NCBI GenBank assembly: GCA_902806275.1
Contig: CADCVY010000079.1
Span: 1-35,365 of the forward strand
Reading direction: 5' to 3'
DNA: 35,365 nt
Source: an uncultured Sphingomonas sp.
Lineage (GTDB): Bacteria; Pseudomonadota; Alphaproteobacteria; Sphingomonadales; Sphingomonadaceae
Below the pieces are notes generated by a model, which was not told the origin of the DNA, made no database searches, and saw only the letters and a program-made list of their open reading frames with translations. Shown piece by piece: positions 15,399-26,354 of this stretch. Within the stretch, counting starts at the first letter, position 1; every line of letters starts with the position of its first letter. The position numbers and the translations under genes were made by a program.

Positions 15399-16411
15399 AG
15401 GCGGCGAAGGCGGGCATCGGCCGCGCGGTCGACCGGCCCAGTCCCGACATCCGCTTCTACCTGTTCCACGGTCCTGACGAGGCGCAGTCGCGCGCGCTGG
15501 GAGACCGGCTGCTGCAGAGCCTGGCGGCCGAGCGGTTCATTGTTGCGTCGGGCGCGGTGAAGACGGACCCGGCTGCGTTGGTGGATGAGGCTGGGGCGAT
15601 GAGCCTGTTCGGTGGCAAGCGCGCGATCTGGGTCGAGCCGGCGCGCGAGGAAGTGTTCGCGGGCGTCGAGGCCTTGCTGCAGGCACCCGCCGCCGAGAGC
15701 CCGGTGATCGCCATTGCCGGCGCGCTGCCCAAGAGTTCGGCTTTGCTGAAGCTCGCCGAGAGCTCGCCGGCCGCGCTCGCATTTGCCGCTTACGTTCCCG
15801 AAGGCGCGGATGCGCAGCGGATGGTAATCGACGTCGGGCGACGGTTCGGTCTGAAGATCGCTCCGCCAGTGGCGGCGCGGCTTGCGGAGGCATGCGGTAA
15901 CGACCAGGCGGTCGCCGCCCAGGAGCTGCAGAAGCTGGCGCTGTACATCGACGCATCGCCGCAGGGCCCGCGTGAGCTCGATGACGGGGCGGTGGACGCC
16001 GTCGGCGCCGAACTGGAGGGCAGCGACTTGCCGCGCTTGGCAGACCTGGCGTTGGCAGGGGAGGTCGGGGAACTTGCCGACGAGCTGGCGCGGCTGCCCG
16101 GCGCCGCCGAGGCCATCCCGATCGTCCGCGCACTGCATCGGCGCTTGCTGATGCTGGCGCCGGCGCTAGCTCGGATCGAACGCGGCGAGCGGCCGGATGC
16201 CGTCATGACGGCACTTGGCAAGTCACTGTTCTGGAAGGACAAAGCGCTTTTCGGAAAACTTCTTGCACTGTGGGACGCCAAAGGTCTCGCGCGGATTACC
16301 GAGCGCGCCGGCCAGCTCGAACGCGGGCTGCTGTTCAGCCCGGCCCCCGACCGAGAAGCGCTAGGCGAGGAGTTGCTTTCGATCGCGCGCGCAGCACGCG
16401 GGCGCTGCTAG
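15395..16411 (+). CDS. holA: DNA polymerase III subunit delta
   Basis: IRFYLFHGPDEAQSRALGDRLLQ, SLFGGKRAIWVEP; delta-subunit organisation; gene order leuS-lptE-holA. Confidence 0.92.
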   Translation: MKAAKAGIGRAVDRPSPDIRFYLFHGPDEAQSRALGDRLLQSLAAERFIVASGAVKTDPAALVDEAGAMSLFGGKRAIWVEPAREEVFAGVEALLQAPAAESPVIAIAGALPKSSALLKLAESSPAALAFAAYVPEGADAQRMVIDVGRRFGLKIAPPVAARLAEACGNDQAVAAQELQKLALYIDASPQGPRELDDGAVDAVGAELEGSDLPRLADLALAGEVGELADELARLPGAAEAIPIVRALHRRLLMLAPALARIERGERPDAVMTALGKSLFWKDKALFGKLLALWDAKGLARITERAGQLERGLLFSPAPDREALGEELLSIARAARGRC

Positions 16412-17313
16412 ATTGGTTCGCCGCTCAGTCGCTGACAGATCATGTCGAGCTGGTCGAGGCTGGAATAACTCAATGTCACCGCCCCACCCTCGCCGTGATG
16501 GGCGACCTGCACCTTGAGGCCAAGCATGTCGCCGAGTTGCCGCTCAAGCGCAGCAAGATCCGGATCGATCGTCTTGTAGTTTCGCGCGCTTCCCCGGGCG
16601 ATGTCGCTACCGGGCCCCGGCAGGACCTTTTCGCGGCGCGCGCGCGCCTCCGTCTGCCGAACTGAGAGCCCCCTGTCGACGATCTCGCGGGTCAGCAACT
16701 CGGGGTCTTCGGCCGCGGCAACAGCACGTGCATGCCCCATGCTGATATCGCCTCGCAATAGCGATTGTCTAACGAACTCGGGAAGTTCAAGCAGTCTCAA
16801 TAAATTAGCAATGTGGCTACGCGATTTGTGGACGATCCGACCGACCTCTTCCTGCGTGTGGCCGTGGCGTTCGATCAGCTGCCTATAGCCGTCCGCCTCT
16901 TCGATGGCATTGAGATCCTGACGTTGGATGTTCTCGATGAGCGCCAGTTCGGCGGTGGTTGCTTCGTCGATTTCCCGGACGATAGCTGGGATCGAATGGA
17001 GCCGAGCCCGCTGCGCCGCACGCCAGCGCCGTTCGCCGGCGATGATCTGGTACCCGTCGCCATCGGGTCGGAGCAAGATCGGCTGGAGCACGCCGCGTTG
17101 CCCGATGGATTCGGCGAGCTCGTCGATGGCCGCCTCGTCGAAATGCACCCGCGGCTGGTTTGGGTTGGGCCGGATGCGCGCCACCTCGATTTCGCTGACT
17201 CCGCCCCGCGGTGGCAGAGACTTGGCTGCACCGGGAGTCGCCGGCCGCGCCGCCGCCTCGCCGAGTAGAGCCGACAGACCCATGCCTAGCCCCTTCGGCT
17301 TGTCGGCGCTCAC
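16408..17313 (-). CDS. parB: Chromosome partitioning protein ParB
   Basis: GLGMGLSALLG, RPNPNQPRVHFDEAAIDELAESI, IIAGERRWRAAQRA, ENIQRQDLNAIEEADGYRQL, HTH KSRSHIANLLRLLELP; GTG start overlapping the parA stop. Confidence 0.97.
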   Translation of the reverse strand: MSADKPKGLGMGLSALLGEAAARPATPGAAKSLPPRGGVSEIEVARIRPNPNQPRVHFDEAAIDELAESIGQRGVLQPILLRPDGDGYQIIAGERRWRAAQRARLHSIPAIVREIDEATTAELALIENIQRQDLNAIEEADGYRQLIERHGHTQEEVGRIVHKSRSHIANLLRLLELPEFVRQSLLRGDISMGHARAVAAAEDPELLTREIVDRGLSVRQTEARARREKVLPGPGSDIARGSARNYKTIDPDLAALERQLGDMLGLKVQVAHHGEGGAVTLSYSSLDQLDMICQRLSGEPI

Positions 17314-18092
17314 GCCGCCACCGCCAGCTGGGGCAAACGCCCGATTAGCTCGCGTGCAAGCCGGACGTAGGCCTCGGACCCGGGACAGCGCAGATCGTAG
17401 ATCAACGCGGGCAGCCCGTGACTGGGGGCCTCGGACAAACGGACGTTGCGCGGCACCATGGTATCGAACACGGCCTCACCAAGGCAGGCGCGTACGTCCT
17501 CAGCGACAGCTTGCGAAAGGTTATTGCGGCGGTCGAACATCGTCAGCGCCACTCCAAGGATTGCCAGTTGTGAATTGAATGCTAGGCGGATGCGCTCCAC
17601 CGTCTGCAGCAACTGGCTGAGCCCCTCTAGCGCGAAAAACTCGGTTTGAAGTGGGACGAGGAGATGGCGAGCAGCGACAAGAGCATTCACCGTCAGCAGT
17701 CCAAGTGAGGGCGGGCAGTCGATCAGGCAGATGTCCCATCGTGCGGCCGGCGCCGACGCCAGCGCCCGGTCGAGGCGGTGGGCGCGATCATCAAGGCCGA
17801 CCATCTCAACCTCGGCGCCGGACAAGTCGACGGTTGCCGGCAGAAGATCCAGCCGCGGCACGCGCGTCGCCACCGCAGCATCCACCACCGATACACTGCC
17901 GATTAGTACGTCATAGCTAGAGCGCGATCGCTGCGACGGCCCGACCCCGACGCCGGTAGAGGCGTTGCCCTGCGGGTCGAGGTCGATCAACAGCACGCGG
18001 GAGCCGATCGCCGCCAGTGCAGTGGCCACATTGATGGCGGTGGTAGTCTTCCCCACACCGCCCTTCTGGTTTGCAACTGCGATGCGGATCAT
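17310..18092 (-). CDS. parA: Chromosome partitioning ATPase ParA
   Basis: [27 protein letters not shown] deviant Walker A; DLDPQGNASTGVG; start at 18092 (the ORF-track start at 18560 runs through rsmG). Confidence 0.97.
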   Translation of the reverse strand: MIRIAVANQKGGVGKTTTAINVATALAAIGSRVLLIDLDPQGNASTGVGVGPSQRSRSSYDVLIGSVSVVDAAVATRVPRLDLLPATVDLSGAEVEMVGLDDRAHRLDRALASAPAARWDICLIDCPPSLGLLTVNALVAARHLLVPLQTEFFALEGLSQLLQTVERIRLAFNSQLAILGVALTMFDRRNNLSQAVAEDVRACLGEAVFDTMVPRNVRLSEAPSHGLPALIYDLRCPGSEAYVRLARELIGRLPQLAVAA

Positions 18093-18697
18093 GGCTTTGG
18101 CCTCACATCTGTCCCGACGATAACGAACGAATCCGCACCGGTCACACTTCGTTCCACGTGAAACGTACCGTGCCACGTTCGTTGAGCTTCTGCCAGTTCG
18201 ACTAACCCGCTTTTGCCCCGAGGAAGCGCCCAGACGGTTTTTCTTGTGGACAGATGCTGGGATATTTCCAGCAGCTTGCCGAGCGGCGCAACAGCGCGGG
18301 CAGTGATCACATCGAAGGATCCAAAAAGACGTTCCGCCTTTCCACAAACCACTTCGGCTCTCAGACCTAACGCCGTGCAAACTCTGCGCAGAAAGTCTGC
18401 GCGTAACCGCCTTGGCTCGACGAGGGTGACCGATCCCTGGATGATGCAGGCCACGACAATGCCGGGCAAGCCGGCACCCGAGCCGATGTCGACCCATGTC
18501 GCGCCCGCATGCGGTTCGAACCGCAGGAGCTGAGCCGAATCGGCAATGTGGCGTTCCCACACGGTGGGCAAGCTTGAGCGGGCAACCAAATTTTGCCGAG
18601 ATGCTTCTTCAGTTAGGAGCGCCACATAGGCTTTCAGCCGCTCCATCGTTTCACGTGGAACAGACCGCTTCGCTGCTGCTTCGACGAGCCCAATCAC
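18089..18697 (-). CDS. rsmG: 16S rRNA (guanine527-N7)-methyltransferase RsmG
   Basis: [19 protein letters not shown] motif; RHIADSAQL; position in the mnmG-rsmG-parA-parB operon. Confidence 0.95.
18151..18164. promoter_or_regulatory. parS-like site 1 (GTTCCACGTGAAAC), inside the 3' end of rsmG
   Basis: Matches the parS core GTTYCACGTGRAAC; about 60 bp upstream of the parA start. Confidence 0.9.
18648..18661. promoter_or_regulatory. parS-like site 2 (GTTTCACGTGGAAC), inside the 5' end of rsmG
   Basis: Exact reverse complement of site 1; matches parS core. Confidence 0.9.
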
Positions 18698-20376: not shown

Positions 20377-20424
20377 TTCCGGTCGCTTAGCCGATGCAGT
20401 GGCAATAAGCTATGCGAGTGTGCC

Positions 20425-20438
20425 GTTCCACGTGGAAC
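20425..20438. promoter_or_regulatory. parS-like site 3 (GTTCCACGTGGAAC), intergenic mnmE/mnmG
   Basis: Perfect 14-bp palindrome matching the parS core, in the 64-bp gap between the mnmE stop (20441) and mnmG start (20376). Confidence 0.93.
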
Positions 20439-20440
20439 AA

Positions 20441-23969: not shown

Positions 23970-24422
23970 CTAGAATGGCCGGACGATGACCAGGACCACG
24001 ATGATTGCCGCGGCGATGCCGGGAACCTCGTTGATCATCCGCACGGCTTTCCCGGAGAGCGGCCGCACGCCAGACGCCAGCTTCTTGCCGTAGGCGCCCA
24101 GCCAGCCCTGGTAGGCGCTGAGCGCAACCACCAGCGCCAGCTTGCCGTGGAACCAGCCCTGGCTGAAGGCGTCGATGTGGAGCGCCAAGGCAAGCCCGAG
24201 CCCCCACACCAGGATCATCGCCGGGTTGAGGATGATCGAGCGAACCCGGCTTTCACGTTCGATCCATGCTCGGTCCTCCGGCGACCCTGCCGCGGTCTCC
24301 TGATGGTAGACGTAAAATCGCGGCAGCAGGAACAGCCCCGCCATCCAGAAGATCACAAAAGTGACATGGGCGGCCTTTACCCAAAGGTAGGCTGGCCCGA
24401 GGAACCCCGCCAGATCCGTCAT
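23970..24422 (-). CDS. hemJ: HemJ-type protoporphyrinogen IX oxidase (CopD-like membrane protein)
   Basis: YLWVKAAHVTFVIFWMAGLFLLPRFYVYH; FHGKLALVVALSAYQGWLG; RMINEVPGI; overlaps hemE by 4 bp. Confidence 0.92.
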   Translation of the reverse strand: MTDLAGFLGPAYLWVKAAHVTFVIFWMAGLFLLPRFYVYHQETAAGSPEDRAWIERESRVRSIILNPAMILVWGLGLALALHIDAFSQGWFHGKLALVVALSAYQGWLGAYGKKLASGVRPLSGKAVRMINEVPGIAAAIIVVLVIVRPF

Positions 24423-25480
24423 TGCTGCCCCTTCACCAGCGCCATCAGCCGCTCGACGTGCGCAATCGGCGTTTCCTTGCTGATGCCGTGCCCCAAGTTG
24501 AAGATATGGGGACGACCGGACAGCGCCCGCAAGATGTCCCCGACGCCGTGCTCGAGATCGTCCGTTCCAGCAAGCAGCAGGAGCGGGTCGAGATTACCCT
24601 GCACCGGCATGCCGGCCGGCAGCTCGCGGTCCGCCCACACTGGGTCTACGGTCTCGTCGAGGCCGATCGCATCGATGCCGGTCTCCCGCGCATAGGCGCC
24701 GAGCTTGCCGCCTGCGCCCTTGGGAAAGCCAATGATCGGCACGCCGGGGTGACTGGCCCCCAGCGCCGCCACGATCGCCGCCGTGGGGGCAATCACCCAC
24801 CGCTCAAACTCCTTCGGCGCAAGGCTGCCCGACCAGCTGTCGAACAGCTGCACGGCGTCAGCCCCGGCCTCGATCTGCCCGGCCAGGTACTCAATCGTTA
24901 TCGTGACGATCCGGTCGATCAGCGCGCTCATGGGCCCGCTGTCGCGATAGGAGAACAACCGTGTCTCCGCCTGCTCACGGCTGCCCTGCCCGGCGACCAT
25001 GTAAGTGGCCACGGTCCAAGGACTGCCGGCGAACCCGAGCAGCGTCCTCGACGGATCGAGTTGCGCTTTGACCTTCGCCACGGTTGCGTAGATCGGCTCC
25101 AGCCGGGCTGGGAATGGCGTCAGCTGATCAAGTGCCGCGTGGCTCAGTGGCGGAGTGAGGCGCGGTCCTTCGCCGGCGATAAAGGTCAAGTTTTGGCCCA
25201 TGGCGAACGGCACGATGAGGATGTCGGAGAACAGTATCGCGGCGTCGAGCTCGGCGAAGCGCCGGAGCGGCTGCAGCGTGATCTCGGCGGCCGCGTCGCT
25301 GTCGTAAACCAGATTGAGGAAGCTGCCCCGGTCGGCCCGGAGCGCACGATATTCGGGAAGGTAGCGGCCGGCCTGGCGCATCATCCAGACGGGCGGCGGG
25401 TCTAGCCGCTGACCGTGAAGGACGGCCAGCACCGGCTTGTCGGCCTGGTGATCATGAGATTCGCCAGGCGCCTGAGCCAC
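24419..25480 (-). CDS. hemE: Uroporphyrinogen decarboxylase
   Basis: PPPVWMMRQAGRYLPEYRALR, ILFSDILIVPFAMGQ, GFAGSPWTVATYMVAG, FNLGHGI; GTG start. Confidence 0.97.
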   Translation of the reverse strand: MAQAPGESHDHQADKPVLAVLHGQRLDPPPVWMMRQAGRYLPEYRALRADRGSFLNLVYDSDAAAEITLQPLRRFAELDAAILFSDILIVPFAMGQNLTFIAGEGPRLTPPLSHAALDQLTPFPARLEPIYATVAKVKAQLDPSRTLLGFAGSPWTVATYMVAGQGSREQAETRLFSYRDSGPMSALIDRIVTITIEYLAGQIEAGADAVQLFDSWSGSLAPKEFERWVIAPTAAIVAALGASHPGVPIIGFPKGAGGKLGAYARETGIDAIGLDETVDPVWADRELPAGMPVQGNLDPLLLLAGTDDLEHGVGDILRALSGRPHIFNLGHGISKETPIAHVERLMALVKGQQ

Positions 25481-25772
25481 CCTTCTTACTCCCTTATATT
25501 ATATTGAAAGAAGGATTGATGTTGTAATTGGTCGCTTGGCAGCGGGGTTTAGGCGCGGCTCCCGGAATTGCCAACAAACGACCGCTTCCGGCGTGCTCTG
25601 TGTAAGCGCGAGTCGCTTGAGGCTGCTCCCGTGATTCACAGCTTGGGGATGATTTCCGCCCCCGTGGATAGATGATCGGAAAGTTCACGCCGGCGCTTGG
25701 CCCATCGCCGATTACGGGGCATCCCCACGCTCGCCCTACGCTCCAGACCGCGCTTTTCCACAAGGTTGTTCG
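25481..25772. other. Probable chromosomal replication origin (oriC), hemE-maf intergenic region
   Basis: Divergent hemE/maf intergenic region (conserved alphaproteobacterial ori context), AT-rich tract at about 25484-25530, DnaA-box-like TTTTCCACA (25754-25762) plus degenerate boxes, gene polarity switch, parABS nearby. Confidence 0.75.
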
Positions 25773-26354
25773 TTGACCCTGATCCTCGCCTCAACCAGCG
25801 CGATCCGCCGCTCGATGCTCAGCGCAGCAGGCGTGGGGTTTGAGGCCGTTGCGCCGAATGTGGATGAAGCCGCGATCAAGGCCACACTGCCAGTGGCGGC
25901 GAACATCGCGTCCGAACTCGCCGCGGCCAAAGCGCTAGCGGTTAGCGCTAAGCGGCTCGAGGAATGGGTGATAGGCAGCGACAGCGTGGTCGAGGTCGAC
26001 GGCCGCGACTTCAGCAAGCCGGCAAACCTAGCCGACGCCGCTGACCACCTGCGCTTCTTTTCCGGGAAGGCGATGCGTCTCACCAGCGCAGTCGCGCTTG
26101 CGCGGTTCGGCGGTGTAGACTGGAACCATCAGGAAACGGCCACGCTGAACGTCCGCCAGCTCTCGGACCAGTTCATTGACGATTATCTCGCCGCCGAATG
26201 GCCACAGGTGGGCTATTGCGTGGGGGTCTTCCGCATGGAGGCCCGCGGCGTGCAATTGTTCGAATCGGTCGACGGCGACCATTTCACCATCCTCGGTATG
26301 CCCCTGCTGCCGTTGCTGGGCGCGCTGCGGACCCGCCGGCTGCTGCCGGCATGA
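25773..26354 (+). CDS. Maf-family nucleoside triphosphate pyrophosphatase
   Basis: LILASTSAIRRSMLSAAG; VIGSDSVVEVDG; DYLAAEWPQVGYCVGVFRMEARGVQLFESVDGDHFTILGMPLLPLL; TTG start. Confidence 0.93.
   Translation: MTLILASTSAIRRSMLSAAGVGFEAVAPNVDEAAIKATLPVAANIASELAAAKALAVSAKRLEEWVIGSDSVVEVDGRDFSKPANLADAADHLRFFSGKAMRLTSAVALARFGGVDWNHQETATLNVRQLSDQFIDDYLAAEWPQVGYCVGVFRMEARGVQLFESVDGDHFTILGMPLLPLLGALRTRRLLPA

Follow-up and report, generated by a model that had tools for sequence, protein, structure and literature searches.

The window, by which is meant the whole 35,365-nucleotide stretch of DNA analysed here, belongs to the MAG of an uncultured Sphingomonas sp. (1.62 Mb in 114 contigs, 72% complete), for which whole-chromosome skew was read from relatives. 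Within it hemE and maf diverge, as the sequence-only reading had it and as direct reading and the Pfam matches bear out, and between them lies a gap of 292 bases (Table 1). Left of this gap nine genes are on the minus strand (parB, parA, rsmG, mnmG, mnmE, terC, rho, hemJ and hemE) and right of it eight are on the plus strand (maf, coaE, dnaQ, hpf, a ptsN-like gene, DUF1491, a cell-wall hydrolase and mmcB), confirming the co-orientation first noted; a minus-strand ankyrin gene comes after mmcB and ends the plus series.

Table 1. Features in and near the hemE-maf gap, with positions counted from the first base of the window
Feature	Position	Strand	Basis or remark
parB	16408-17313	-	PF02195/PF17762; origin-proximal partition gene
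parA, ORF with ATPase domain in its second part	17310-18560	-	PF13614; origin-proximal partition gene
parS-like site CGTTCCACGTGAAACG	18150-18165	+	Motif search of window
parS-like site CGTTTCACGTGGAACA	18647-18662	+	Motif search of window
parS-like site CGTTCCACGTGGAACA	20424-20439	+	Motif search of window
hemE, flanking marker	24419-25480	-	PF01208, E 2e-107
Predicted chromosomal origin (oriC), hemE-maf gap	25481-25772		Positional homology with about 75 sphingomonads and 28 genus mates; skew minima in relatives
AT-rich tract, predicted DNA unwinding element	25494-25529		Most AT-rich 36-mer and least stable 41-mer of window; genus-conserved
Conserved block GCGGGGTTTAGGCG	25542-25555		Genus alignment; no DnaA box
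Conserved block TTGCCAACA	25568-25576		28/29 genus gaps, 24/76 others; no DnaA box
Conserved GCGAGTCGC with GANTC (CcrM) site 25610-25614	25608-25616		Counts in genus and other sphingomonads
DnaA box 1 (predicted), TGATTCACA, with internal GATTC (CcrM) site	25632-25640	+	Column of TTATCCACA elsewhere
Weak DnaA box 2 (predicted), TGGGGATGA; minus strand TCATCCCCA	25644-25652	-	2 mismatches; aligns with minus-strand TTATCCACA of other sphingomonads
Weak DnaA box 3 (predicted), CGTGGATAG; minus strand CTATCCACG	25663-25671	-	2 mismatches; aligns with conserved minus-strand box
Box-like GCATCCCCA	25719-25727	+	CCCCA core conserved in genus
Strongest DnaA box (predicted), TTTTCCACA, 10 bases ahead of maf	25754-25762	+	Genus conservation
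maf, right flank	25773-26354	+	PF02545, E 4e-39

The comparison set comprised 80 sphingomonad hemE loci, with 29 gaps from the genus (the window's included) and some 75-76 gaps from outside it. The genus, which we take to be possibly GTDB's Sphingomicrobium, was taken to include Sphingomonas hankyongi SE220 and Sphingomonas sp. BN140010, and 70 further genomes were available besides the MAG; these and the related loci mark the window as sphingomonad DNA. At nearly all sphingomonad loci with enough flank the order is hemE, a gap of about 300 bp, ppsR (a DUF299 regulator) and maf. In the window and at loci L003-L005 maf directly adjoins the gap, without ppsR between, and ppsR (Kinase-PPPase, PF03618) is found in none of the 71 genus genomes searched (G000, G008-G077), nor in any of the 53 high-quality ones, and so has been lost and not merely moved. 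The loss of this usual oriC neighbour from the genus is possibly a new observation. Further right, coaE directly follows maf in the window (26351) and likewise at L003, while about 0.8 kb, probably aroE, separates the two in most other sphingomonads and at L004 and L005. Two records, L016 ('Bacillus sp. 2B10') and L067 ('Microvirga sp. SRT01'), possess a sphingomonad-type hemE-ppsR-maf locus and so are probably mislabelled.

Direct reading places TTTTCCACA, TGATTCACA, TGGGGATGA and CGTGGATAG, and also the two GANTC sites (GAGTC at 25610 and GATTC at 25633), exactly where the sequence-only reading had put them; GCATCCCCA is present one base to the left of its claimed 25720-25728, and DnaA binding there is doubtful. 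Boxes within two mismatches of TTATCCACA number four in the gap against 0.54 in shuffled sequence, with none of 300 shuffles reaching four, and one box is within a single mismatch (0.03 in shuffles, P 0.03); the excess disappears once three mismatches are allowed (7 versus 4.2, P 0.13). The scarcity of perfect boxes first remarked upon holds, in that the window gap has none matching TTATCCACA exactly. The DnaA of the MAG has an intact recognition motif (FGGRDHTTV).

Alignment of the gaps beside hemE in relatives, proposed at the outset as a check, works well and puts the boxes of the window on conserved box columns. Across 58 loci, 78 of 335 gap columns exceed 70% identity and 21 exceed 90%, as compared to 18 and 9 of 176 columns in the hemJ-rho gap and to 2 and 0 of 324 in shuffled gaps. 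The 76 sphingomonad gaps together hold 178 boxes within one mismatch where 4 are expected, and 58 perfect ones where 0.05 are expected. In other sphingomonads the columns of the window's weak boxes hold the TTATCCACA / TGTGGATAA pair and the final CTTATCCACAG. In the genus the last box, TT[A/T/G]TCCACA, occurs near the place of 25754-25762 in 28 of 29 gaps, and box 1 reads GATTCACA in 22 of 29 but in none of 75 others, the same column being TTATCCACA elsewhere; the window's form, TGATTCACA, with the T-to-G and a second change, is seen in 14 of the 29 genus gaps. Of these 29, 6 have perfect boxes, versus 38 of the 75 others. These genus counts are not independent, since a single inherited ancestral change would yield them. 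The suggestion of a weak-box architecture gains support from alignment, in which the same weak boxes recur at matching positions throughout the genus, and that the box nearest maf should usually be the sole near-consensus box of the gap is possibly a new feature.

The AT-rich tract is real, and needs only to be moved one base left of the roughly 25495-25530 first given for it, to 25494-25529. This 36-mer is 81% AT, the highest value in the 35-kb window, and the least stable 41-bp stretch of the window is also at this tract. In the right part of the tract the genus alignment shows a trinucleotide-like block, GATTGATGTTGTAATT, to be conserved. Where the tract borders a G+C-rich stretch, a run of trinucleotide-like units, GATTGATGTTGT, recalls the DnaA-trios of the Bacillus subtilis type (PMC8287927), although its polarity and middle adenine fit the published motif unclearly. 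Several genus members have a run of CAN triplets on the minus strand; with a polarity opposite to the published motif and so small an excess (4.0, versus 3.5-3.6 in shuffles), it is not claimed as a DnaA-trio element. At the place of GCGAGTCGC, CGAGTCG or CGATTCG is found in 26 of 29 genus gaps versus 15 of 75 others.

Conservation of this kind could be regulatory, the gap being a mere promoter region for the two genes with the origin elsewhere. hemE and maf do diverge here, and the conserved blocks GCGGGGTTTAGGCG, TTGCCAACA and AAGGTTGTTC are no DnaA boxes and may serve transcription. Such a reading leaves the box excess (178 versus 4) without a cause, as it does the skew and FtsK-motif minima that fall at the gap in relatives, as set out below; no Rfam, promoter-like or terminator-like match, and no sigma-70-like promoter, was found in the gap, and its sequence has been kept in the genus although the gene to its right is maf and not ppsR. 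A promoter region and nothing else is consequently very improbable, and a replication origin is the reading pursued here.

The sequence-only reading was to fall if the skew minimum lay elsewhere, for instance near dnaA, and in relatives it survived. For the near-complete S. phyllosphaerae FA2 (a 3.8 Mb scaffold, 40 sample tiles and a dense 400 kb), the cumulative GC-skew minimum is at a tile boundary placed on the gap, at 3.0715 Mb, and the minimum for the FtsK motif GGGNAGGG is likewise at the hemE gap. On a 276-kb contig of S. hankyongi, of the same genus, the skew minimum at 201,388 lies some 500 bp away from the gap (about 200.7-201.0 kb) on the hemE side, the same side as in the window. 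The skew of the window itself is shallow, with a minimum after 15 kb at 25,081, inside hemE, and an absolute minimum at 1,488, away from the gap. In Erythrobacter NAP1 the FtsK-motif minimum (2.53-2.69 Mb) spans the gap at 2.677 Mb, and the GC-skew minimum is flat and shallow, about 0.1 Mb to the right of it; a 400-kb stretch of BN140010 has a noisy GC skew with its minimum at 34 kb as against a gap at 102.7 kb.

For the same-genus genomes the FtsK-motif matches listed are mainly forward sites, and the switch was localised only in G071. There, among the matches listed, forward GGGCAGGG occurs 5 times over the 1.02 Mb that precede the gap and 26 times in the next 0.57 Mb, and its density change point, again among the matches listed, is at 0.946-1.061 Mb, a range that takes in the gap (1.024 Mb) and leaves out dnaA (1.99 Mb). 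A two-rate model on one strand and the matches listed gave change points away from the gap in G041 (2.05-2.12 Mb; gap 1.745 Mb) and G031 (1.08-1.21 Mb; gap 1.797 Mb), which a motif density increasing toward the terminus probably explains; mean densities either side of the gap differ in the right sense in both (in G041, 8 versus 50 per Mb among the matches listed).

An origin at or near dnaA is the common arrangement in bacteria outside the Sphingomonadales. Here dnaA is 0.38-1.8 Mb distant from the hemE gap in every genome with both on one contig, and in FA2 (G001:C1:1242916) it is near the skew maximum, on the terminus side, some 1.83 Mb from the gap. In Sphingomonadales dnaA has been reported to be away from ori, with parAB a good anchor (PMC8116508). 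That replication should start at dnaA is accordingly hardly credible, and the hemE gap stands as the preferred site.

The partition genes are indeed close by, parAB and three parS-like sites being 5-9 kb left of the gap. Three such sites in the window, in and near parA, mnmG and mnmE, compare with 0.02 by chance and likely make up a centromere cluster, and 47 of 58 relatives have parS-like sites no more than 10 kb from hemE. It could be argued that replication begins in this neighbourhood but outside the gap, for example at parABS, with the gap as a DnaA-titrating or regulatory site, since skew minima localise only to some hundreds to thousands of bases, the window minimum at 25,081 is inside hemE and the parS cluster is at 18.1-20.4 kb. 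Yet the unstable tract, the boxes and the gene strand switch coincide in the gap, and it is the hemE gap that published predictions name (PMC4741004), so an origin displaced to the surroundings has very little probability.

Overall the gap at 25481-25772 is almost certainly the chromosomal replication origin, as first proposed, a prediction built on a conserved, box-bearing, AT-rich non-coding gap, on the skew and FtsK-motif switch in relatives and on parABS nearby. What marks a hemE-linked alphaproteobacterial oriC is found here: a position immediately next to hemE amid a conserved order of flanking genes, a DnaA-box cluster above chance and on conserved columns, an AT-rich unwinding element predicted from duplex stability, parABS close at hand, and a GC-skew minimum that is present in FA2 and S. 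hankyongi, shallow in NAP1 and not seen in BN140010. DoriC predictions put oriC near hemE in most Sphingomonadaceae, and the Sphingopyxis origin is described as having conserved boxes and a DUE (PMC4741004), so the finding is right but ordinary in kind. The origins of Sphingopyxis granuli TFA and its relatives (PMC4741004; DoriC) share with this one the hemE side, the conserved gap of about 300 bp, the DnaA boxes and the AT-rich unwinding element; they differ in that here ppsR is missing and maf is the right neighbour, that there is a single near-consensus box, and that most of the genus has GATTCACA as box 1. A literature text search with the supposed genus name and oriC gave nothing on the origin, as judged by title and abstract.

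DnaA would first occupy the near-consensus box beside maf (25754-25762) and from there may help to fill the three weak middle boxes (25632-25671). A DnaA-ATP filament could then extend toward hemE and melt the AT-rich tract at 25494-25529, where helicase would be loaded for bidirectional replication. More weakly, the methylation state of box 1 may alter DnaA affinity after fork passage, given a GANTC site inside the box and a CcrM-type methylase in the genus.

The genus-wide GATTCACA places GANTC, the methylation site of CcrM, within a predicted DnaA box, and is possibly new. GANTC sites are enriched about fourfold, at 4.5 per genus gap and 4.8 per other sphingomonad gap versus 1.1 and 1.3, with two in the window gap itself. 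A methylase with an N6_N4_Mtase domain is present in 70 of the 71 genus genomes, the sole one without being the MAG, and the one genus methylase examined shares with CcrM a RAMA domain. GcrA and the N6/N4 methylase were not found in the 72% complete MAG, which is put down to its incompleteness given the 70 of 71.

The work of Brassinga in 2001, cited in PMC4741004, is reported to have placed the Caulobacter crescentus Cori beside hemE. The origin here resembles Cori in that position, in having boxes predicted to be weak and in a T-to-G change at position 2 of box 1 that may make it a G-box. Cori has G-boxes and W-boxes, the G-box being a T-to-G change, according to PMC4468827, which draws on Taylor 2011. 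The second change in box 1 here, C to T at position 5, which makes the GANTC site, is a difference, and so is the lack in this gap of the CtrA sites that mark Cori: the CtrA-type TTAA-N7-TTAA is in none of the 29 genus gaps, the window gap has no TTAA of any kind, and there are no CtrA sites overlapping DnaA boxes as at Cori. According to PMC8116508, which cites other work, CtrA is dispensable in S. melonis, the Sphingomonas tested. It is conceivable, if rather unlikely, that the origin was rebuilt in the genus around a methylation-switchable box 1, in which hemimethylated GATTC in GATTCACA would alter DnaA binding and help to block re-initiation without CtrA sites at oriC.

The origin would now be fixed for a sphingomonad genus with small genomes, making possible estimates of replication rate from metagenomes, where a coverage peak is expected at the hemE-maf gap. 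The 29 aligned gaps supply natural variants that separate box 1, the GANTC sites and the last box from one another. Should the GATTCACA box prove methylation-sensitive, CcrM would have a tie to origin control in a lineage whose tested Sphingomonas can dispense with CtrA.
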